From contig DASPKU010000019.1 of NCBI GenBank assembly GCA_035627955.1, positions 62,001-126,000 of the forward strand: DNA of 64,000 nt. The letters are read 5' to 3'. The notes beneath the pieces were generated by a model. That model ran no database searches. It had not been told where the DNA came from and saw only the letters and a list, made by a program, of their open reading frames with translations. Position numbers and translations under genes: made by a program. Within the stretch, counting starts at the first letter, position 1. The number at the start of each line of letters is the position of its first letter. This DNA comes from Phycisphaerales bacterium (GTDB lineage Bacteria; Planctomycetota; Phycisphaerae; Phycisphaerales; UBA1924). This document shows, piece by piece, positions 3,333 to 59,555 of this stretch.

Positions 3333-3440
3333 GAAGTGACGGAGTGACGAAGTGACGAAGTGACGCAGTGACGCAGTGACGAAGTGACGAAGTGACGAAG
3401 TGACGAAGTGACGAAGTGACGAAGTGACGAAGTGACGCAG
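3333..3440. repeat. Octanucleotide tandem array, AGTGACGA family, 13 units
   Basis: GTGAC recurs every 8 bp at 3336, 3344, 3352 and so on to 3432, with unit GTGACGAA and minor changes (GTGACGGA, GTGACGCA). It fills the 5' leader of the aminotransferase gene on the minus strand, ending 5 bp from its ATG. Because 8 is not a multiple of 3, any read-through would repeat every 24 bp. The same family, mixed with AGTGGCGA units, recurs at 59492-59555. Confidence 0.9.
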
Positions 3441-25459: not shown

Positions 25460-26113
25460 TCAGCCCGCCCTTCGCCCATCCACCGCCAGCAGCCCCCGCA
25501 CCACACCATAGCTCAGCACCCCCGCCACATAGACGTCGCTCAGAAAGTGCGCCCCGCTGATCAGCCGCGTCACGCAGCAGCCCACCGCCAGCGCCACCGC
25601 CACCGCCCCCACCCGCGGCCACAGCGCCGCCACCATCATCGCCCCCCCGAACGCCACCCCTGCGTGCGAGCTCGCCAGCCCCAGCCCCCGCACCAGCTCG
25701 CCCCCCGGCACCTCGTCCATCACCCAGCGGAACACATACTCGCCGTTGGTGCCCGGCCGGAACCGCTGCACCACGCCCTTCAAGACCTCCGCCGCCGCGC
25801 CGCCCAGCGCCGCCGCCAGGAACACCATCGACGCCCGCCGCAGCTTCCCCTCCGCCCACCACATGAACACCGCCGCGATGAACCACGCCGGCAGGTACCC
25901 CACCTGCCGGAACAGCTGGTACCAGTCCTTCCGCTCCACGCTCTCGAACGTTGCGCGGTCGAGCGTGAACCGCTCCCACACCCAGCGGTCAATCAGCGTC
26001 ACCAGCAGCAGCCCGACCACCAGCGCGAGCGCCACCACCAGCCCGCGCACGCGTCGCGCCCGCCGCTCGTGTGGTGCGAGCAACGCCGCGGGCACGCTGT
26101 GTGGAACGCTCAC
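25460..26113 (-). CDS. PAP2-superfamily phosphatase, membrane-bound
   Basis: 217 residues. The tripartite PAP2 signature is present: KGVVQRFRP (KxxxxxxRP), SSHAG in place of PSGH, and TRLISGAHFLSDV in place of SRxxxxxHxxxD. About five membrane segments place the active site outside the cytoplasmic leaflet. Likely substrates are lipid phosphates such as lipid A 1-phosphate, undecaprenyl pyrophosphate or phosphatidate. The location between a GT39-like transferase and an lptG-like gene favours lipid A or envelope lipid. GTG start overlaps the upstream stop (GTGA, 26110-26113). Confidence 0.88.
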   Translation of the reverse strand: MSVPHSVPAALLAPHERRARRVRGLVVALALVVGLLLVTLIDRWVWERFTLDRATFESVERKDWYQLFRQVGYLPAWFIAAVFMWWAEGKLRRASMVFLAAALGGAAAEVLKGVVQRFRPGTNGEYVFRWVMDEVPGGELVRGLGLASSHAGVAFGGAMMVAALWPRVGAVAVALAVGCCVTRLISGAHFLSDVYVAGVLSYGVVRGLLAVDGRRAG

Positions 26114-27888
26114 TTCCCACCGCCCTTCGGCAGCATCTCATCGAGCGTTGGCGGCGCCCCCTCGGTCCGCAGGCCGCCCTTCGGGAACCCCTTGAATCCG
26201 TACCCCTTGAACGCGGGCCGGTCGCGCTTGCCATCGGCCCGCAGCTTGCCGATCTCCACCACCCGCTCGAACAGCGGCGCCCAGTCCTGGAACCGCGCCC
26301 CGTTCATCACCGCCGGCCGCCCGATCAGCGACGGGTACTCCGCGCTCGCCTCCACGCCCACCGTCCCGCGCTTGCGCAGGTCCGTATCAGGCCAGAAGTC
26401 GTACGGCGACACCCGCCCGTTCAGGAGCAGGCTCGAGCAGCAGAACACTGTCGGCCGCCCCGGCATGTAGAACGCAAACTGCGACGCCCGCCCGTAGTGC
26501 AGCGCGATGACAAAGGGCTCTCGGCCCGTCTCTGCCCGCAGCTCCTCAGCCAGCTCCTGCGCGTGCGACGCCATCACGTCCGCCCCCATGACCCGCCAGA
26601 CCGGCACGTACTTCCCTACCACCGGCACCTTCGCCAGCCAGTCGATCCGCAGCATCCCCAGCCCCGTCGCCAGCCCGAGGACCAGCGTCGCCCCCCACGC
26701 CAGCCGCGTCCACCTCGCCGCACTTCCAGCCAAACCATCGCGCAGGCGCACGACCTGCATCGCCGCGACCGGCACCAGCGTGACAAACGCGGCCATCGCC
26801 CAGTTCCCCTGCGGGTTCGTCACCAGACTCACCAGCAGGTACAGCACGAACATCGGCTCGCTCAGCGACAGGCAGTACCGCACCGCCGCCCACCGCGCCG
26901 GCTCCTCGCGCCGCGCCCGGCGCGTGTACAACCGCTGCAGCAACGCCAGCAGCAGCATCGGCCCGCCCAGCGCCAGCTGCGACCCCACGTAGTTCAGCGT
27001 CCACTGCGGCTTGTACGTCCACCCCTGCCCCCCGCCCTGCCGCACATACTGATCCCCGCCGGGCAGCCCCAGGTGCCCCATCAGGTGCCGCACCGTCGGC
27101 CACCCCTGCTCATGATTCCACACCACGATCGGGCTCACGATCACCGCGAACACCGCGAGCGCCAGCAGCCAGTAGAGGAGTGGAGGAGTGGAGGAGTAGA
27201 GGAGCGGCGAACCGTCATCCATGCTCCTCCACTCCTCTTCTCCTCTACTCCTGTTCTTCCCCCTACGCCCCAACCACCATGCCAACGCCAGCCCCGGCAC
27301 CACCATCAGCATCGTGTACTTGTACAGCACACCAACGCCAATCACCGCCCCCAGCCCCACCAGCGCCCACCCCGACCCCCGCAGCACGCGCCACCCCGCC
27401 CACGCCGCCACCGCCCAGCACGCCGCGTACGGCCCATCAATCGTGGTGATCAGCCCGAGCGACTGGAACACCGGCATCACGAAGAACACCGCGGCCGCGT
27501 ACCACGCCACGCGCCGGTCCCGCGTCAGATCAAACGCCAGCCCCGCCACCGCCCACGCCGCGACCCCCGACGCCACGGCCGCGATCGCCCGCACCGCGAA
27601 CTCGTTCTCCCCCAAGAGCCGCACAAACCCCGCGATCGTCCACGCGATCCCCGGCCCCTTGGTGTAGTACGACAGCGACAGGTGCCGCGACCACTCCCAG
27701 TAGTTCGTCTCGTCCTCGATCAGCGTGTACGGGCACAACCACGCCAGGTACGCCAGCCGCGCAAGCGTGATGCCCACGATCAGCAGCAGTGTTCCTTTTG
27801 AAGAAGTGGCAAAGTGGCAAAGTGGCGAAGTGGCAAAGTGAGAGGACGCTGCCTCCGGTCGCACTTTGCCACTTTGCCACTCTGCCAC
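26110..27888 (-). CDS. GT39/GT83-like integral-membrane glycosyltransferase with in-frame repeat
   Basis: Up to 592 residues with 10 or more membrane segments. The first periplasmic loop has the EDETNYWEWSRHLSLSYYTK motif (acidic catalytic pair) typical of PMT_2/ArnT-like transferases, which move a sugar from a polyprenyl-phosphate carrier to lipid A or protein. The start is uncertain: the longest reading begins at a GTG in an octamer array (27888) and reads the array as peptide; a GTG at 27777 (VGITLARLAYLAWL) is an alternative. Residues about 215-238 (GEEEWRSMDDGSPLLYSSTP) are encoded by a palindromic octamer array (27171-27252) sitting in a loop between membrane segments. It overlaps the PAP2 gene downstream. 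Confidence 0.85.
   Translation of the reverse strand: MAEWQSGKVRPEAASSHFATSPLCHFATSSKGTLLLIVGITLARLAYLAWLCPYTLIEDETNYWEWSRHLSLSYYTKGPGIAWTIAGFVRLLGENEFAVRAIAAVASGVAAWAVAGLAFDLTRDRRVAWYAAAVFFVMPVFQSLGLITTIDGPYAACWAVAAWAGWRVLRGSGWALVGLGAVIGVGVLYKYTMLMVVPGLALAWWLGRRGKNRSRGEEEWRSMDDGSPLLYSSTPPLLYWLLALAVFAVIVSPIVVWNHEQGWPTVRHLMGHLGLPGGDQYVRQGGGQGWTYKPQWTLNYVGSQLALGGPMLLLALLQRLYTRRARREEPARWAAVRYCLSLSEPMFVLYLLVSLVTNPQGNWAMAAFVTLVPVAAMQVVRLRDGLAGSAARWTRLAWGATLVLGLATGLGMLRIDWLAKVPVVGKYVPVWRVMGADVMASHAQELAEELRAETGREPFVIALHYGRASQFAFYMPGRPTVFCCSSLLLNGRVSPYDFWPDTDLRKRGTVGVEASAEYPSLIGRPAVMNGARFQDWAPLFERVVEIGKLRADGKRDRPAFKGYGFKGFPKGGLRTEGAPPTLDEMLPKGGGK
27171..27252. repeat. Palindromic GGAGGAGT octamer array inside the glycosyltransferase gene
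   Basis: The left arm (27171-27206) is AGTAGAGGAGTGGAGGAGTG and on; the right arm (27223-27252) is the inverted complement (CTCCTCCACTCCTCTTCTCC). The two arms can form a long imperfect hairpin. The array is in frame, without stops, in 26110-27888. Confidence 0.88.
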
Positions 27889-27899
27889 TTTGCCACTCT
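27804..27899. repeat. Palindromic AGTGGCAA octamer array
   Basis: Left arm 27804-27840: four to five AGTGGCAA/AGTGGCGA units. Right arm 27861-27898: the inverted complement (CACTTTGCC units). The arms pair over about 37 bp around a 20-nt loop. The array ends 3 bp from the stop codon of the lptF-like gene (27902) and covers the 5' end of the glycosyltransferase gene. Confidence 0.9.
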
Positions 27900-27901
27900 C
27901 C

Positions 27902-29587
27902 TCAGTGCCGCGCCAGCTTCCAGTACACCACCATCGTGTACAGCCCCAGCGCCGCCACCCCCGCCCACATCAGCGCCAGCCCGCCCGCCCCCACCTGCTT
28001 GGTCAGCTGCTGCCCGCCGCTGATGGTCACCATCGTCACCAGCGCCGGCGCGAACGTGAACAGGTACACGGTCAGCGGCAGCTTGCGGCTCAGCAGCAGC
28101 GCCGTGATCGCCCCCGTCAGCACCATCACTGCGCACGACGCCGCCATCGCCATCCGCTCGTTCTGCTTCCCCAGGATCACCCGGTCCAGCTGCACCAGCC
28201 CATCGCGCAGCGCCTGCGGCGCCTCGTCCAGCCGATCCCCCGCCTTCACCCACGCGTCCGCCCGCTCCAGCAGCGCCGCCGGCGGCAGCTTCCGCAGCTC
28301 CTCCGCCGGGTCCGGCGACGGCGACAAGCCCTCCAGCGAGAACCCGCTCCGCTCCGTCGCCGCCGTCGAGTCACCCGCGGCCGCGGAATCCCGCACCCGC
28401 GCCCGCTCTAAGGTCAACTTGAACGATGCCGCCGCACCGCGCTGCTCGCGCTTCAGCGTCCCCGACTCCGCCGTAATTGTCTGCGTCGACCGCCCCGTCG
28501 TCGTCGTGCGCAGCCGCAGCACCTCGACGCCCCCCGCCAGCGTCCACTCGCCGTTGGCGAACGCCAGCCGCCCCACCCGCAGCGACACCGGCTGGTTGCT
28601 CCCATCCGCAAACTGGATCGCCTCGCCCCGCGTGCTCGCCTCCTGGATCCGCGCGAGCGTCTGCCGCTGCGCCAGCGCTGTCACCAGCTTCTGCCGCTGC
28701 GCATCCACCCAGTTCAGCCGGTACGGGTTGTCCACCAGCCGCCGCAGCTCCCCCCACGACATGAACGCCACCTTCTCCGTGAACGTGTTGGGGATCGTCC
28801 ACGTCAGCGGCACCTCCTGCACCTGCACCAGCCCCACGCCCTCCACGTACCCCGACGCGTCCTCGAACTCCATCACCACCCGCGACACGCCCTCGCTCGA
28901 CTCCCCCGCCCCCTCCGCCAACGGGATCAGCCACAGGTTCGCGTGCGCACACGACAGCTCCCGGCGCGGCCTGCCCTCCTTGTCCAGCTCCACGAACGCG
29001 AAGTTCGCGAACCGGATCTGGTCCGTAGCGCCCCCCGTGGGCTGCTCGATCGCCAGCGCTCGGTCCGCGTAGATCATCACCTTGCCTTCGCCGCTCCCCC
29101 CCCCGACGCCCCCCATCCCCCCGCGGAACTCCACGGCCTCTCCCCGCGTGGTCCCCTGCAGCATCTTCCGCGCCACGTCCACCGTCACCATCTTCTGCAT
29201 TGTCCGCAGGAACACCGGTATCACCTGCTCGTTGAGCAGCATCAGCCCGCCCGTCAGCACCAGCGCCAGCGCGAGCGCCGGCCCCAGCAGCGCCCGGTGG
29301 CTGATCCCACCCGCGTGCGCCGCCACCGCCTCGTTGTCGCTCGCGATCCGGTGGTACACCAGCGTGCTCGCGAAACCGCCCGCGAACGGCAGGGCGTACG
29401 CCAGCATCGGCACCATCGCAATCAGCACGAACTTGGGCAGGTCCCCCGCCGACAGCACGCCGTCCGACAGCGGCTTGATCGCCGCCCCCAGCGCAATCAC
29501 CAGCACCAGCACCGTCGCCGTGAGCGCAACCAGCTTCAGCAGGTCCAGGAACGTGCTGCGGAACAGAGTGAATGAAGGTCGCGCCAC
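27902..29587 (-). CDS. LptF-family permease (long variant)
   Basis: 561 residues. The N-terminal segments (FLDLLKLVALTATVLVLVIA; FVLIAMVPMLAYALPFAGGF; ALLGPALALALVLTGGLMLL) and C-terminal segments (MAASCAVMVLTGAITALLLS; LTVYLFTFAPALVTMVTISG) match the LptF/LptG fold. The periplasmic region (about 130-470) is much longer than in typical LptF proteins (about 360 residues in total) and partly repetitive and charged. It would pair with the 24311-25459 protein to carry LPS-type lipid. GTG start with a TACGAT box 9 nt upstream. First gene of the envelope cluster. Confidence 0.8.
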   Translation of the reverse strand: MARPSFTLFRSTFLDLLKLVALTATVLVLVIALGAAIKPLSDGVLSAGDLPKFVLIAMVPMLAYALPFAGGFASTLVYHRIASDNEAVAAHAGGISHRALLGPALALALVLTGGLMLLNEQVIPVFLRTMQKMVTVDVARKMLQGTTRGEAVEFRGGMGGVGGGSGEGKVMIYADRALAIEQPTGGATDQIRFANFAFVELDKEGRPRRELSCAHANLWLIPLAEGAGESSEGVSRVVMEFEDASGYVEGVGLVQVQEVPLTWTIPNTFTEKVAFMSWGELRRLVDNPYRLNWVDAQRQKLVTALAQRQTLARIQEASTRGEAIQFADGSNQPVSLRVGRLAFANGEWTLAGGVEVLRLRTTTTGRSTQTITAESGTLKREQRGAAASFKLTLERARVRDSAAAGDSTAATERSGFSLEGLSPSPDPAEELRKLPPAALLERADAWVKAGDRLDEAPQALRDGLVQLDRVILGKQNERMAMAASCAVMVLTGAITALLLSRKLPLTVYLFTFAPALVTMVTISGGQQLTKQVGAGGLALMWAGVAALGLYTMVVYWKLARH

Positions 29588-36350: not shown

Positions 36351-36471
36351 GCTGCTAGTCCATACGCGGCCGGTGTGTGGGCGGGGTGAGCGGGTGGGTG
36401 AGAAAGTAGAAAGCAGGGAGTAAAAGGCGGGTCTCTCGCGGAGGACGCGGGGGGCGCGGAGGGAGGCACTT

Positions 36472-36523
36472 CGGATGTGGGATGTCGGATGTCGGATGTC
36501 GGATGTGGGATGTGGGATGTGGG
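36472..36523. repeat. GGATGTSG octanucleotide array
   Basis: About six head-to-tail units alternating GGATGTCG and GGATGTGG. The same family is at 47253-47293, 48280-48311 and 48728-48757. Confidence 0.88.
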
Positions 36524-37480: not shown

Positions 37481-37685
37481 CGGGCACCGTCCTTTCGTGT
37501 TTCTTGGACGGGGCCGGGCAACGCTGCCCTGCACCATCCGACGGTGCTGAGGGATCGGGATATTCCTTGAGCAACTTTGGTGCAGCGCGCGCGGATTTTG
37601 AGGCCCTGAGCCGTAAGTTCCTGCCCCGGCACGGCTTGTTCAATGCCGGGAGCGCTCGCCCGCGGCCACCGAAGACCCCGCGCGG
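37481..37685. promoter_or_regulatory. Leader region between FN3-like gene and its 21-bp array
   Basis: About 205 bp upstream of 36803-37480. Apart from the ribosome-binding site I see no hairpin or box that I can defend. It presumably contains the promoter. Confidence 0.35.
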
Positions 37686-37826
37686 GCCATGATTCACCCT
37701 CAATAAGCCATGATTCGCCCTGCCCGGGCCATGATTCACTCTGAATGAGCCATGATTCGCGCTGCTCGGGCCATGATTCACTCTCAATAAGCCATGATCC
37801 GCCCCGCTCGGGCCATGGTTCACTCA
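37686..37826. repeat. 21-bp tandem array (6.7 units, alternating two unit types)
   Basis: Units start at 37686, 37707, 37728, 37749, 37770, 37791 and 37812, exactly 21 bp apart. All begin GCCATGATTC (one GCCATGGTTC). The remaining 11 bp alternate between ACYCTCAATAA-like and GCCCTGCCCGG-like ends, giving a 42-bp higher-order period. 21 bp equals two helical turns, so a bound protein would see every unit on the same DNA face. Confidence 0.93.
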
Positions 37827-47350: not shown

Positions 47351-49186
47351 TCAGGTCCAGCGCTGCGCGATGGGAAAGCGGCGGCCGGGGCCGAAGGCGA
47401 CGGTGGTGACCTTGAGGCCGATGGCGGCCTGCTTGCGCTTGTACTCGGCCAGCGCGATGAGGCGGAGGACGCGGCGGACGGTGGGTTCGTCGTAGCCGGT
47501 TTCCTTGATGATGGTGTCGGCGGACTGGTGGCGTTCGACGTGGCGCTCGATGATGGCGTCGAGGATGTCGTAGGGGGGGAGCGAGTCCTGGTCGGTCTGG
47601 TTGGGGCGGAGTTCGGCGCTGGGGACCTTGGTGATGGTGCGCTCGGGGATGGGGGGTTCTTGGAATCCACACTTGAGGTGGTTGGCGTTGATCCAGCGGG
47701 AGAGGCGGTAGACGAGCTGCTTGGTGACGTCGGAGAGGACGGCGAGGCCGCCGTTCATGTCGCCGTAGAGAGTGCAATAGCCCACGGCGAGCTCGGACTT
47801 GTTGCCGGTGGTGAGGACGATGGCGCCGGTGCGATTGCTCAGAGCCATCAGGAGGGTGCCGCGGAGGCGGGACTGGAGGTTCTCTTCGGCGATGTCGGGG
47901 AGTTTCTCGCCCAGCGCGGGCTGGTGGAGAGATTGGAAGGTGGGGTTGAGGGTGCGCTCGAAGGTGGTGAAGGGGTCCTCGATGGGGACGACAGGGCAGG
48001 GGATGCTCAGGCGGCTGGCGAGGTCGAGGGCGTCTTCGACGGAGTGCGTGCTGGAGTAGTGGCTGGGCATGGCGACGCCGAGGACGTTGGGCGCGCCGAG
48101 CGCGGCGACGGCGAGTGCGGCGGTGAGGGCGGAGTCGATGCCGCCGGAGAGGCCCAGGAGTGCGCGGGTGAAGCCGGTTTTGCGGAGGTAGTCCTTGATG
48201 CCGGTGGTGAGGGCGAGGAAGAGGAGCGATTCGGTAGAGGAGTGGAGGAGTGGAGGAGTGGAGGAGTGGGGAGAAATATCGGATGTGGGATGTCGGATGT
48301 GGGATGTGGGGGCGGTCGCGGTACCGCGGGTTGAAGGTGATTGCGACTCGCGCGAACTCACCCCAACCCCTCCTGGGAGGGCGTTCAGGTCGATGACGAG
48401 CATGTCGCCTTGGAAGAGGTTGCCGGCGGCGATGAGGTCGCCGGTGGGGGCGTAGAGGAGGGTGTGGCCGTCGAAGAGGAGGTCGTCGTTGCCTCCGAGC
48501 TGGTTGACGCTGGCGACGTAGACGCGGTGCTTCGTGGCGTGGTGCTGGAGGATGGCGCGGTGGCGGTCACCCTTGCCGAGGACGAAGGGGCTGGCGCTAG
48601 GAGAGATGATGAGGTTGGCGCCGAGCTTGACGAGTTCGTCGACGGGGTCGGGGGTGTTGGTGTAGCGGGAGGAGAAGCCGGCGTCCTCGCCCTTCCAGAG
48701 GTCTTCGCAGATGGTGAGGCCGGCGCGGAATGTCGGATGTCGGATGTCGGATGTCGAAAGGTCGATGACAACCGCGCGGTTGCCGGGCTCGAAGTAGCGG
48801 TCCTCGTCGAAGACGTCGTAGGTGGGGAGGAGGCGCTTGTCGTAGTAGTCGAGGAGGGTGTTATTGCGGTAGGCGAGGAGGGCGTTGGCGGTGGGGGCGC
48901 GGCGGGGTTGGTTGGGGGTGGCGTCGAGTGGGAGGGGGAGGCCGAAGATGGCGGTGATGTTGTGGGTGTGGTGCTCGCCGATGTGTTTGGCGGCCGCGGC
49001 ACAGGCGGGGACGAAGCCTTCCATGAGGAGGAGGTCGCGGGGGGGGTAGCCGCAGAGGGCGAGCTCGGGGAAGACGACGACGTCGGCGCCGGCGTCCCGG
49101 GCCCTGTTGATGCCGGTGATGATGAGGGCGGTGTTGCCCTTGAGGTCGCCGATGGTGGGGTTGATCGGGGCGAAGGCCAGACGCAT
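47351..49186 (-). CDS. nadE: Glutamine-dependent NAD+ synthetase with in-frame repeat insertions
   Basis: 611 residues. The nitrilase-type glutaminase domain (1-275) shows the Glu/Lys/Cys triad in FPELALCGYPPRDLL, YYDKRLLPTYDVFDEDRYFE and GLTICEDLW. The synthetase domain (about 315-611) has the ATP-pyrophosphatase loop LLGLSGGIDSAL and TTGNKSELAVGYCTLYGDMN. It converts deamido-NAD+ to NAD+ in the cytoplasm. Two loops are repeat-encoded: STSDIRHPTF just before the Cys strand (48728-48757), and the linker between domains (TSHIRHPTSDISPHSSTPPL and on, 48232-48312). TACCAT lies 7 nt before the ATG with no Shine-Dalgarno. Confidence 0.93.
   Translation of the reverse strand: MRLAFAPINPTIGDLKGNTALIITGINRARDAGADVVVFPELALCGYPPRDLLLMEGFVPACAAAAKHIGEHHTHNITAIFGLPLPLDATPNQPRRAPTANALLAYRNNTLLDYYDKRLLPTYDVFDEDRYFEPGNRAVVIDLSTSDIRHPTFRAGLTICEDLWKGEDAGFSSRYTNTPDPVDELVKLGANLIISPSASPFVLGKGDRHRAILQHHATKHRVYVASVNQLGGNDDLLFDGHTLLYAPTGDLIAAGNLFQGDMLVIDLNALPGGVGVSSRESQSPSTRGTATAPTSHIRHPTSDISPHSSTPPLLHSSTESLLFLALTTGIKDYLRKTGFTRALLGLSGGIDSALTAALAVAALGAPNVLGVAMPSHYSSTHSVEDALDLASRLSIPCPVVPIEDPFTTFERTLNPTFQSLHQPALGEKLPDIAEENLQSRLRGTLLMALSNRTGAIVLTTGNKSELAVGYCTLYGDMNGGLAVLSDVTKQLVYRLSRWINANHLKCGFQEPPIPERTITKVPSAELRPNQTDQDSLPPYDILDAIIERHVERHQSADTIIKETGYDEPTVRRVLRLIALAEYKRKQAAIGLKVTTVAFGPGRRFPIAQRWT
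48232..48312. repeat. Two octamer arrays (GGAGGAGT and GGATGTSG) inside nadE
   Basis: 48232-48272 has about five GGAGGAGT units and 48280-48311 about four GGATGTSG units, side by side and in frame, encoding most of the linker between the glutaminase and synthetase domains. Confidence 0.9.
48728..48757. repeat. GGATGTCG array inside the nadE glutaminase domain
   Basis: AATGTCGGATGTCGGATGTC and on: about 3.5 units, in frame, encoding STSDIRHPTF in a surface loop before the catalytic-Cys strand. Confidence 0.88.
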
Positions 49187-49213: not shown

Positions 49214-49255
49214 GGGAGTAGAGGAGAAGAGGAGTGGAGGAGTAGAGGAGTGGGG
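49214..49255. repeat. GGAGGAGT-type array between nadE and ggt
   Basis: GGAGTAGAGGAGAAGAGGAG followed by TGGAGGAGTAGAGGAGTG. It fills most of the 81-bp gap between divergent nadE and ggt and abuts the TAGGAT box of ggt (49256-49261). Confidence 0.85.
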
Positions 49256-51040: not shown

Positions 51041-53266
51041 CTACCAGTTGATGGCTTTGAGCAGGTTGGTGTAGTCGTCGGTCCAGACGGGGTCGCCCGC
51101 GGCGGGCGTGAGCCTGGTCCAGCGCGGGTCGAGGGTGAGGGGGAGGAGGTCGCCCTGGCTGCGGGCGACGGCGACCCACTCGGAGGCAAACTTCTCGCCC
51201 TTGGTCTCGAGGTCGTTGCGGAGGTAGGCGACGGCGTCGGCGTTGTGGGCGAGCGCGGCGACGATGGGGGCGAGGCGGAAGGTGCGGCTGGAGACGTGGA
51301 ACATGACGACGCCGCGGGGGGAGAGGTTGCGGAGGTAGATGTCGAGGGCCTCGGCGGTCATGAGGTGGACGGGGATGGCGTCGCTGCTGAAGGCGTCGAG
51401 GATGATGAGGTCGGCGAGCTCTGTGAGCGCGGCGACGCCGAGGCGGCCGTCGCCGACCCATGTGGTGACCTGGGCGCCGCGTTCGCGGGCGTCGGAGAGG
51501 TAGGTGAACCACGTGGGGTTGGAGGCGATCTCGACGACGCCGGGGTCGATCTCGATGAAGTGCACGCTGGTGGTGGTGTCGGCGTAGGCGGCGATGGTGC
51601 CGGCGCCCAGGCCGACGCCGACGATGCGGTGGAGGCGGCCGTCGTCGCGGAGCATGGCGATCACATTGCCGAGCGGGCCGTCGGGGTGGTAGTAGGTGGT
51701 GGGGGTGCGGGAGAGCTCGTCGGTGGCGGGGTCGGAGGGGACGCGGCGGACCTGCTGGCCGTGGTTGGTGGTGCCGTGGCAGAGGGTGCGGTGCTTGCCG
51801 TCGGCCCACTCGATGACGGTGGTGACGCCGAAGAAGGAGCGGTGGCGGAGGATGGCGCCGGCGGTGGTGCCGGTGAACGGCGCGAGCAGCAGCAGGAAGA
51901 GGGCGGTCAGGCCGAAGCGGAGGGTGCCGCCGTTGACGAGGGTGAGGAGGCAAAGGCCGGCGGGGATGGCGGCGGTGAAGAGGGCCTTGATCGCCTTGGA
52001 ATCGATGGACGAGGCGGAGACGATGCGCTGGATGATGAGGGTGGCGGCAAGGATGAGGGACGCGGCGAGGAGGTCGCGGGGGAAGGAAGACCCTCGCTTG
52101 CGCGTCGGGCTCGTTTGGTGGGCGAAGTTCGTTGGGCGGGCCAGGCAGACCAGCCCCAGCATGAGCGGGTACTCGACGATGGCGTTGAAGATGAGCGGGG
52201 CGAGGAGGGCGTTGAAGACGCCGCCGAGCGCGCCGCCCAGGGCGATGGTGAGGTAGAAGGTGGTGAGGTGCTGGGCCGGCGGCCGGGACTCGGCGAGGGC
52301 GCGGTGGCACATGGTGGCCGCGATGAAGAAGGTGATGAGGTGGACGGGGGCCTGCAGGAGCTCGCCCTGCACGTGGCTGAGCAGGAGCGTGAGGACGATG
52401 GCGGCAGGAAGCACCAGCACGTTGCCCCAGAAGCGGGCGGGGAAGTTGACGGAGCGGGCGAAGGCGAGGGTGTAGCTGAGCAGGTACAGGGTCAGCGGCA
52501 GCACCCACAGCAGCGGCACCGCGGCGATGTCGGTGGTGATGTGCTGGGTCACGCCCATCATGAGGCTGGAGGGGATGAGGGCGTAGAGGAGCCAGCGGAG
52601 GCGCTGAGACGGTGAGACGGTGAGTGGGTGAGACGGTGAGGGCAGTGGCAGTGGAGGAGTGGAGGAGTGGAGGAGTGGAGGAGCTGCGCTGCGGCGGGTG
52701 ATGAAGGTGGTTGTCGCTGTCAGGGCGGCGAACACGGCGAACGCGCCGGTCCAGGCCCAGGACTGCTGCGTGCGGGTGAGGCTGGGCTCCACCAGCAGCG
52801 GGTAGGCGAGCAGGCCCGCGGCGCTGCCGGCGTTGCTGGCGGCGTACAGGAAGTAGGGGTCTTGGGCCCGCTCGTGCCGCGTGCGCGAGAACCACGCCTG
52901 CAGCAGCGTGCCGGTGGCGGCGATGGCGAAGAACGCGGGGCCGAAGGTGAGCGCGAGCTGCCCGAGCAGCCACAGGGCGGGGGTGTCTGTCGAGGGCTCG
53001 GCGCTGGTGGCGCGGATGGGCAGGGAGATGGCCGCCGCGGCGATGACGGCGAGGTGCACCCACTGCTGCGCGGCCATCGGCAGGCGTGCGAGGCGGTGGG
53101 CGTAGAGGTACCCCAGCAGCAGCACGCCCTGGAAGAACATGAGGCAGGTGTTCCACACCGCGGGCGAGCCGCCCAGCAGCGGCAGGTACAGCTTGCCCGC
53201 GAGGGGCTCGAGGAGGAAGAGGAGGGCCGCGCCGAGGAAGATGGTGGCGGTGAGGAGGGGGAGCAC
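51041..53266 (-). CDS. Membrane-fused aminopropyltransferase (spermidine-synthase-like) protein with in-frame repeats
   Basis: 741 residues. The first 440 or so residues form about ten membrane segments, starting LLTATIFLGAALLFLLEPLA. The C-terminal Rossmann domain (about 490-720) has IVGVGLGAGTIAAYA, VHFIEIDPGVVEIA, VGDGRLGV and ADLIILDAFSSDAIPVHL, as in spermidine-synthase-like methyltransferase-fold proteins. The canonical catalytic Asp/Glu set is not clearly retained, so the reaction is uncertain. Residues near 192-222 (APPLLHSSTPPLPLPSPSHP and on) come from octamer arrays, and HQTSPTRKRGSSF near 385 from another planctomycete repeat. Start GTG with TATCCT 6 nt upstream. Confidence 0.85.
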   Translation of the reverse strand: MLPLLTATIFLGAALLFLLEPLAGKLYLPLLGGSPAVWNTCLMFFQGVLLLGYLYAHRLARLPMAAQQWVHLAVIAAAAISLPIRATSAEPSTDTPALWLLGQLALTFGPAFFAIAATGTLLQAWFSRTRHERAQDPYFLYAASNAGSAAGLLAYPLLVEPSLTRTQQSWAWTGAFAVFAALTATTTFITRRSAAPPLLHSSTPPLPLPSPSHPLTVSPSQRLRWLLYALIPSSLMMGVTQHITTDIAAVPLLWVLPLTLYLLSYTLAFARSVNFPARFWGNVLVLPAAIVLTLLLSHVQGELLQAPVHLITFFIAATMCHRALAESRPPAQHLTTFYLTIALGGALGGVFNALLAPLIFNAIVEYPLMLGLVCLARPTNFAHQTSPTRKRGSSFPRDLLAASLILAATLIIQRIVSASSIDSKAIKALFTAAIPAGLCLLTLVNGGTLRFGLTALFLLLLAPFTGTTAGAILRHRSFFGVTTVIEWADGKHRTLCHGTTNHGQQVRRVPSDPATDELSRTPTTYYHPDGPLGNVIAMLRDDGRLHRIVGVGLGAGTIAAYADTTTSVHFIEIDPGVVEIASNPTWFTYLSDARERGAQVTTWVGDGRLGVAALTELADLIILDAFSSDAIPVHLMTAEALDIYLRNLSPRGVVMFHVSSRTFRLAPIVAALAHNADAVAYLRNDLETKGEKFASEWVAVARSQGDLLPLTLDPRWTRLTPAAGDPVWTDDYTNLLKAINW
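52089..52113. repeat. Repeat encoding TSPTRKRG inside the aminopropyltransferase-like gene
   Basis: CCCTCGCTTGCGCGTCGGGC on the plus strand, read in frame on the minus strand as SPTRKRG. I recall this peptide from many unrelated planctomycete proteins, which suggests a mobile or hot-spot sequence. Confidence 0.6.
52602..52684. repeat. GGTGAGAC and GGAGGAGT octamer arrays inside the aminopropyltransferase-like gene
   Basis: 52602-52640: GAGACGGTGAGACGGTGAGT and two more GGTGAGAC-like units. 52650-52684: about four GGAGGAGT units. They are in frame and encode a Pro/Ser-rich loop between membrane segments 5 and 6. Confidence 0.88.
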
Positions 53267-53272
53267 GGGGGG

Positions 53273-53278
53273 AGGATA
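53273..53278 (-). promoter_or_regulatory. Putative -10 box (TATCCT) for the aminopropyltransferase-like gene
   Basis: On the minus strand, TATCCT is followed by CCCCCC and the GTG at 53266. Directly upstream lies a GGAGGAGT array, so the promoter is next to the repeat. Confidence 0.4.
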
Positions 53279-53283
53279 CTGGG

Positions 53284-53350
53284 GGGAGTGGGGGAGTGGG
53301 GGAGCGGAGGAGTGGAGGAGTGGAGGAGTGGAGGAGTGGAGGAGTGGGGG
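53284..53350. repeat. GGAGGAGT octanucleotide array, about 8 units
   Basis: GGAGTGGGGGAGTGGGGGAG, then five perfect GGAGGAGT units. It lies between the stop codon of 53359-53598 (8 bp away) and the start of the next gene on the same strand. Confidence 0.92.
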
Positions 53351-53358
53351 GCCCCGGG

Positions 53359-53598
53359 CTACCGGCTGGTCGCTCCTCCACGTGCGGCGACCGAGATGGT
53401 GACGTGCGCGATGATGAATGCGAGAGCGCCCAGCCCATACCAGAGCGCGCGGCGATCAATCGGAACCTGAGTGTCCGGCGCGTTGTGCGGATGGCCTCTG
53501 CCGGACCAGTGGATGATCAGCAGGATCATGAGCACCGCGCCGGCCAGTGTGAGCCACGTCGCGCAGGTGAGATGCCGTGCTCTGACGGACGCAGGCAT
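53359..53598 (-). CDS. Small two-pass membrane protein
   Basis: 79 residues. Two membrane segments (CATWLTLAGAVLMILLIIHW, about 12-31; ALWYGLGALAFIIAHVTISV, about 51-70). The start at 53598 is the first ATG; a TTG further up is less likely. No family is recognised. It may be co-transcribed with the membrane-fused aminopropyltransferase-like gene downstream. Confidence 0.62.
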   Translation of the reverse strand: MPASVRARHLTCATWLTLAGAVLMILLIIHWSGRGHPHNAPDTQVPIDRRALWYGLGALAFIIAHVTISVAARGGATSR

Positions 53599-55506: not shown

Positions 55507-55674
55507 CACGGCGCGGTTTGAGTGTGGCACGGCGCGGATTGAGTGCGGCCCGGCGCGGGCTGTCGAGGCCCCGGCGAGGTCTGTTGATGGCACGGCGCGG
55601 TTTGTCGAGGCCCCGAGGCGAGTTGCTGATGGCACGGCGCCGGCTGAGCATGGCCCGCCGCGGGCGGGGCCTCG
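55507..55674. repeat. 21-bp tandem array (8 units)
   Basis: Units start at 55507, 55528, 55549, 55570, 55591, 55612, 55633 and 55654, exactly 21 bp apart. The unit core is CACGGCGCGG or CCCGGCGCGG, followed by TTTGAGTGTGG-like or TTGTCGAGGC-like ends. Its sequence differs from the array at 37686 but the period, phase and position relative to the FN3-like gene are the same. Confidence 0.92.
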
Positions 55675-59417: not shown

Positions 59418-59479
59418 GGCACGCGAAGACATGCTCACGCACGCGAAGACATGCTCACGCAGGGCCGTGAGCATGCCAC
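59418..59479. repeat. GTGCCAC-type hairpin with duplicated arm
   Basis: CATGCTCACG / CGTGAGCATG pairs around CAGGGC, followed by CCAC (59450-59479). The segment CGCGAAGACATGCTCACGCA occurs twice in a row just before it, and TGGCAC precedes both, so one arm seems duplicated. Confidence 0.7.
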
Positions 59480-59491
59480 CCGGCGCACTGC

Positions 59492-59555
59492 GTCACTCCG
59501 TCACTTTGCCACTTCGCCACTTCGCCACTTCGCCACTTCGCCACTTTGCCACTGG
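59492..59555. repeat. Octanucleotide array mixing GTCACTCC and GCCACTTC units
   Basis: Eight 8-bp units: two GTCACT-type then six GCCACT-type. On the minus strand these read AGTGACGG and AGTGGCGA, so this array joins the families seen at 3333 and 27804. It ends 2 bp from the stop codon at 59558. Confidence 0.92.

Follow-up and report, generated by a model that had tools for sequence, protein, structure and literature searches.

The repeats that encode part of the linker in the glutamine-dependent NAD+ synthase NadE appear to exemplify a dispersal of small repeats that reaches beyond this gene and adds extra loops that proteins tolerate. We analysed a 64-kb stretch of DNA (hereafter the window) together with other parts of its genome (4.26 Mb in 23 contigs, 95.67% complete and 1.6% contaminated). 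We hold with good confidence that the two nadE linker arrays are copies of lineage-specific small non-autonomous repeats which are tolerated as near-neutral peptides. Our understanding of this process draws on the nadE gene itself, on the population of similar arrays in the genome, on the reading frames that these arrays occupy and on the genomes of relatives.

The nadE gene (47351..49186, minus strand) encodes a protein of 611 residues with CN_hydrolase and NAD_synthase domains (Pfam). With both domains present and an NF010588 equivalog score of 615.2 bits against a cut-off of 479 (NCBIfam), the protein is a PRK13981-type NAD+ synthase; its top Foldseek matches are 5kha, 4f4h and 3n05, and the closest nadE records come mostly from Phycisphaerales or other planctomycete metagenome genomes. 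Two arrays lie 7 bp apart in the linker, both with their unit on the plus strand, antisense to nadE: an octamer array of GAGGAGTG (48237-48273; 4.8 units, 96% match) and a heptamer array of GGATGTS (GGATGTG/GGATGTC; 48281-48310; 4.3 units). In frame, they translate as residues 305-317 (SPHSSTPPLLHSS) and 293-302 (PTSHIRHPTS), respectively. The earlier note had described two adjoining octamer families encoding most of the linker. The arrays are real, neighbouring and in frame, but the second unit is a heptamer, and 'most' was too strong: with the linker taken as residues 268-318 (of the flanking Pfam domains, one ends at 267 and the other starts at 325), the arrays account for 23 of its approximately 51 residues. 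That note had also overlooked one array inside nadE and another just outside it. The former, a heptamer array of GGATGTC (48730..48756, minus strand; 3.9 units), lies in the glutaminase domain as residues 144-153 (STSDIRHPTF) and stops seven residues short of Cys160, an invariant column of the orthologue alignment. We take Cys160 to be the catalytic nucleophile of this domain, presumably equivalent to Cys176 of the tuberculosis enzyme, which is named in PDB titles. The latter, an octamer array of GGAGTAGA (49215..49251, plus strand), is located between the divergent nadE and gamma-glutamyltranspeptidase genes. The linker arrays form no stable fold (z -2.3 for the antisense strand and 0.36 for the mRNA strand), and, as judged from the assembly alone, no sign of misassembly was found at the nadE arrays. 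A BoxC-like third repeat type in the linker was considered and rejected. The stretch AGGAGGGGTTGGGGTGAG (48357..48374, minus strand) bears a partial likeness, by eye, to the BoxC/intrastrand triplex motif as given in PMC4666352, although this pattern was composed after the sequence had been viewed and its chance figure is thus no independent test; the likeness recurs nowhere else in 291 loci, and GGGTTGGGGTGAG is present in six of the 291, every one nadE itself.

The length of the linker varies among orthologues, as the earlier note had supposed: the block spans 43-82 residues across 45 orthologue rows, of which four or more pairs match exactly in the displayed blocks and one (L074) is without the first block. 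The window protein has 81 residues here, and four of the 45 rows have at least 76. The turn before the glutaminase cysteine spans 27-39 residues, with 34 in the window protein. The longest turn, 39 residues, belongs to a relative (L062, nadE of G053) that also bears a linker repeat. None of the 45 rows contains PTSHIRHPTS, SPHSSTPPLLHSS or STSDIRHPTF, so the observation that would have spoken against insertion, a linker peptide shared by orthologues, was not made. An AlphaFold2 model built from 36 sequences (mean pLDDT 85.6) predicts a disordered linker, with pLDDT below 50 at residues 274-308 and also at 121-128, and places residues 144-153 between two predicted strands. Compared with 4f4h and 5kha, the linker sits between two aligned pieces and the turn is gapped; compared with the Streptomyces enzyme 3n05, there is a gap at the turn, but the linker aligns almost gap-free and is about equally long. 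Since four rows reach 76 residues and the 3n05 linker is as long, a long linker is not unusual in itself; what is unusual is its repeat sequence. The proposal that insertion took place where length can vary thus finds support in the linker, while the further array lies near the presumed catalytic cysteine, in a turn that is also length-variable.

Arrays of this kind are numerous in the window. When periods 4-12 were considered, 14 exact tandem runs reached 14 or more matched bases, and every one of them has a period of 7 or 8, compared with no period-7/8 run in 30 third-order Markov replicas. In the genome, GGATGTS repeated three times gives 30 overlapping matches at 14 places (reversed control 0/0), AAGTGGC gives 23 at 13 places (0/0) and GGAGTGGA gives 21 at 10 places (0/1). 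We further sampled 40 stretches (788 kb) from nine of the 23 contigs, which were chosen by coordinate before their sequence was seen; all nine contigs had earlier array matches, and some stretch ends were set to avoid known arrays. Array counts were made at several cut-offs. The strict set comprises 49 elements in 852 kb, 11 in the window and 38 in the other stretches, which makes the window about 3.6 times denser. Apart from nadE, the window contains two in-frame cases on the minus strand: inverted octamer arrays forming a hairpin (27171..27257, z -9.2) in a PMT_2-family gene (26113-27969), and adjoining octamer arrays of TGAGACGG and AGTGGAGG (52605..52683) in frame 51044-53455. This frame has no Pfam match and a weak likeness to a fused MFS/spermidine synthase, scoring 36.8 bits in NCBIfam where the cut-off is 40; an octamer array of GGAGTGGA (53285..53347; 7.9 units), itself not scored as coding, lies in its upstream part. 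Near the start of the PMT_2-family frame lies an inverted octamer hairpin of AAGTGGCA (27804..27897; -70.4 kcal/mol, z -11.6), which was not scored as coding-flanked. Neither the heptamer array of GGATGTS (36471..36523; 7.3 units) nor the octamer array of CACTTCGC (59486..59553; 8.5 units) is coding-flanked on both sides, and the octamer array of GAAGTGAC (3333..3437; 13.1 units) has stops on one strand and is in frame in no gene. The window also holds a perfect 20-bp repeat, GCACGCGAAGACATGCTCAC (59419-59461; 2.2 copies), 24 bp before the CACTTCGC array, and tandem repeats of period 21/42 at 37675-37825 and 55507-55646 that are unrelated to the 7-8-mers.

The units fall into two classes with distinct cores. 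An SGGA core (CGGA/GGGA) is found in 25 of 31 heptamer arrays, compared with 15% of random 7-mers and two of 34 octamer arrays, and an AGTG core in 24 of the 34 octamer arrays, compared with 4% of random units and two of the 31 heptamer arrays; the two arms of one hairpin were counted separately in this tally. Most arrays (51/65) consist of 3.8-5.2 units, a preference aided by the score threshold, which discards short imperfect arrays. As all 31 heptamer arrays are free of stops on both strands against 80% of random units, and 25 of the 34 octamer arrays against 75%, only the heptamers stand out in this respect. Arrays occur singly, next to one another, or as an inverted pair of arms enclosing a variable loop. 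The last arrangement was examined in 15 delimited AAGTGGC elements, in which 12 of the 15 left arms and 12 of the 15 right arms are 36-37 nt long, equal to four and a half units; in four elements one arm differs in length, and one element was mis-split by the script. Excluding the latter, the loops are 16-45 nt and share no common sequence by eye. The inverted pairs span 90-125 nt. Their total length is divisible by three in four of the six elements inside genes and in two of the nine others, two within-gene hairpins being 98 and 104 nt as delimited and so not multiples of three. Ten inverted pairs from three families, chosen for being inverted, have folding energies of -55.6 to -72.8 kcal/mol, with z from -5.8 to -11.6. 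The possibility that the arms are recent inverted copies of each other found no support: AAGTGGC arms are slightly less alike within an element (33.5/37) than between elements (34.0/37), and 98.7% of permutations reach the observed sum. The AAGTGGCA hairpins (L175, L179, L181, L194, L197, L199, L203, L205 and L206, and window 27804-27897) look as if they avoid perfect palindromes. Side-by-side arrays as in nadE were also found elsewhere. Of ten distinct exact GGAG arrays in the loci analysed, two (nadE and L002, C4:4221-4292) are followed within 80 bp by a GGATGT array of like orientation, and none of the ten is preceded by a GGATGT array or paired with one pointing the other way; a looser octamer-then-heptamer pair, ordered as in nadE, lies at 12330-12400 of L256. 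The pair could travel together, or one member could land beside the other, and the numbers are small.

Selection on the reading frame is visible genome-wide. Of the 49 strict elements, 33 were not scored as flanked by coding sequence on either side together, 14 keep the frame of a single gene (ten in the stretches and four in the window, two of which are those of nadE) and two carry the label SHIFT, both of which straddle gene boundaries by eye. No frame-breaking copy in the middle of a gene was seen among these elements. If insert lengths were random modulo 3, the chance of 14 out of 14 in frame would be (1/3)^14, or (1/3)^10 for the stretches alone. Coding was called with a codon-usage score, for which long frames from the window and from the first 20 stretches served as the training set, and with no gene finder; we infer translation of the inserts from frame and codon signal. 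A wider element list adds five SHIFT/STOP labels: four belong to repeat families and are gene ends or starts by eye, L205 being the least clear, and the fifth (L008 1025-1063) is an uninspected period-14 tract. Apparent low-complexity or non-family tracts that scored as coding, such as window 25790, L033 162-199 and L050 223, were not counted. The suggestion in the earlier note that purifying selection acts on position is therefore supported in that the frame is kept in all 14 within-gene elements, but the arrays are not specific to NadE.

The carrier genes, identified with Pfam and NCBIfam, encode many conserved proteins. MutS has two inserts, one of them six residues before GPNMAGKST, which we take to be the ATPase motif. 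Valine-tRNA ligase (ValRS) carries two hairpins in frame and the error-prone DNA polymerase DnaE2 two inserts; the insert in fumarase (FumC) is confined to an N-terminal leader. The further carriers are a menaquinone-type UbiD-family decarboxylase, a PcrA/UvrD helicase, DusB, MurD, PurL, methylmalonate-semialdehyde dehydrogenase, a histidine kinase and a DUF5682 protein. The assignments of ValS, PcrA, FumC, DnaE2, DusB and PurL are below the NCBIfam cut-offs, partly because the loci cut the genes, as L181 and L199 do. The in-frame count includes a 400-residue frame with several heptamer and octamer peptides and no NCBIfam match (L256:11916-13115, G000:C19). A second in-frame array, CAGCGATA, was noted in the PurL gene (L252:6670-6700). 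Compared with solved structures (PDB), the inserts of MutS and ValRS coincide with alignment gaps or separate two aligned pieces. ValRS was matched in all 40 relatives searched. By our own count of the rows listed, the aligned pieces end at 195-201 and resume at 225-233 in at least 29 of the 40 at the first insert, and break from about 325-337 to 352-367 in at least 12 at the second; the remaining rows run through as one piece, with their gaps not displayed. Judging from these alignments, most relatives have a ValRS without at least the first insert.

The exact patterns are rare in related genomes: the heptamer pattern was found in three of 60 and AAGTGGC in one, and GGAGTGGA in none of the 60, one of which has five matches to the reversed control. 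Nevertheless, other nadE linkers contain arrays of their own. The linker of L089 has octamers of CACAGAGA and CACCGTCT, and CACCGTCT recurs at five other places in that genome (reversed control, three matches). That of L062 has TCTGGGG units with an inverted partner; this pattern has 13 matches in its genome, one of them in nadE, against six for the reversed control, which is a weaker case of recurrence than that of CACCGTCT, and it has no match in the genomes of L064 or of the window. The L064 linker has CCCGAAA heptamers. The nadE linker has thus been struck by different 7-8-mer families in at least three lineages besides the window genome.

We favour the interpretation that these are non-autonomous repeats, copied via single-stranded hairpin intermediates and filtered by selection. 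Copies would land at many sites, selection would purge those that break genes, and survivors in flexible linkers and turns would persist as translated near-neutral peptides; the NadE insert is probably without function. Because a unit of 7 or 8 is coprime to 3, each array passes through all three reading frames when translated, so that only stop-free units would persist on the sense strand. Several observations count against this interpretation: the nadE arrays form no mRNA hairpin, the 3n05 linker is equally long, the exact patterns are rare in relatives, several carriers score below the NCBIfam cut-offs and two within-gene AAGTGGC hairpins have lengths that are not multiples of three. Mobility is deduced from dispersal alone. 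As for the route, we offer a weakly held guess: either Y1 (HUH) transposition, or single-stranded hairpins copied by folding back at the replication fork. Nine Y1_Tnp matches were found in the genome, and none of the named repeat families occurs within the eight Y1 loci examined (26 kb), so that no clear tie of a RAYT kind between repeats and Y1 genes emerged at these loci. A GGATTGG heptamer array (L220 766-802, TRF) does lie some 700 bp away from a weak Y1 match, which is unremarkable since one element per approximately 21 kb predicts about one in 26 kb. Writing by a telomerase- or retron-like reverse transcriptase was rejected, as the genome has no RVT_1 match; the same search was positive in three of 14 control genomes. 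Carriage by viruses or plasmids was likewise tried and rejected: the check for virus carriage gave two and nine stretches in viral contigs, and one 40-nt query found no plasmid match, possibly masked by the low-complexity filter. A bolder proposal, which we regard as doubtful, is that one mechanism writes arrays of near-fixed length (about 30-37 nt, unit 7 or 8), often as inverted pairs, that the two classes evolve in a quasi-species-like manner around a fixed core, and that arrays of stop-free units coprime to 3 serve as a universal device for inserting peptides in frame, through which essential enzymes repeatedly gain longer linkers and turns.

One rival to dispersal is a purely local origin, in which replication slippage expanded every array on the spot, starting from a chance 7-8-mer, without movement between loci. 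PMC6749651 suggests such an origin for short-unit satellites in some species, but here the same units occur at 10-14 separate places, share cores and often form inverted arms of similar length; owing to this dispersal and these shared features, local slippage alone is unlikely. An assembly or binning artefact could be feared in a genome of this completeness, contamination and contig number, as repeats can be misassembled. Most arrays, however, are only 30-40 bp long with unique flanks and genes in frame on both sides, and independent genomes behave in the same way, which makes an artefact hardly credible.

In another rival explanation, the nadE inserts are functional, for instance by tuning the coupling between the enzyme halves or by regulating expression through DNA structure. 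That they lie where the two domains meet and next to the presumed catalytic cysteine fits this idea, and the heptamer G-tracts recall the quadruplex-forming GGGNATC repeats described in PMC4692102. Yet similar arrays are present in many unrelated proteins, the peptide is absent from all 45 orthologue rows, the linker is predicted to be disordered and the mRNA strand is unstructured; we consider a function quite improbable. Alternatively, the inserts may be removed at some point after transcription, or the ribosome may skip them; PMC6649704 cites such behaviour for mitochondrial palindromes of Magnusiomyces. The ValRS, UbiD and histidine kinase frames contain hairpins of -63 to -72 kcal/mol that would suit such a process, which we nonetheless judge very unlikely: all 14 within-gene elements are in frame and stop-free, which would be unneeded if they were bypassed, and the nadE arrays are no hairpins.

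Among known systems, the best reading by analogy is that these repeats would be STRR-like in unit and Rickettsia-palindromic-element-like in behaviour. In PMC2229807, Rickettsia palindromic elements (RPEs) are small repeats found in 19 reading frames, and an insert-bearing gmk product is active. As with RPEs so described, the repeats here are small, often palindromic, intergenic as well as in frame in conserved protein genes, and tolerated. RPEs measure 105-146 bp with a stable stem-loop; the AAGTGGC pairs span 90-125 nt with strong folds, whereas the nadE arrays are unfolded. Furthermore, comparing by description, the hairpin arms here are tandem 7-/8-mer arrays, other arrays commonly stand alone or next to one another, and one planctomycete-like genome harbours many unit families. 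The dispersed heptamer arrays resemble, again by description, cyanobacterial STRRs, for which PMC2670836 reports a region able to form a hairpin; the title of a cited reference places an STRR inside an RNase P RNA gene. GGGNATC arrays are likewise dispersed heptamer arrays of about four units; PMC4692102 gives a four-unit preference and avoidance of coding regions, and this unit is absent from the 31 heptamer arrays found here. Short hairpin repeats in a genome with Y1_Tnp matches are reminiscent of REP/RAYT systems, from which the eight Y1 loci examined differ in lacking any named family. MITE-like inverted arms are present, but no target-site duplication of 2-8 bp was found in 12 AAGTGGC elements as delimited. 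The coding palindromes of nematomorph mitochondria are also long inverted repeats within translated genes; according to PMC6649704, both of their arms encode conserved positions and are mostly perfect, whereas here they are extra sequence with imperfect arms. PMC6749651 lists Rhodopirellula baltica among satellite-bearing prokaryotes, and a 2025 survey (PMC12699852) finds bacterial genomes on average not enriched in short tandem repeats. In titles and abstract openings of the open-access literature, we found no description of in-frame 7-8-mer arrays in Planctomycetes.

These findings would mean that conserved enzymes gain peptides from small repeats in bacteria other than Rickettsia as well, the same nadE linker being struck independently in different lineages. 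They also offer natural insertion-tolerance maps of conserved proteins such as NadE, MutS, ValRS, PurL and MurD. In addition, they allow a test of the reasons for which arrays of heptamers and octamers in bacteria favour about four units. The published quadruplex explanation requires four G-tracts and does not readily account for octamers such as AAGTGGCA. On array length, one locus (L026:1479-1601) has a heptamer run of about 12 units opposite an inverted arm of four units, possibly an expansion.
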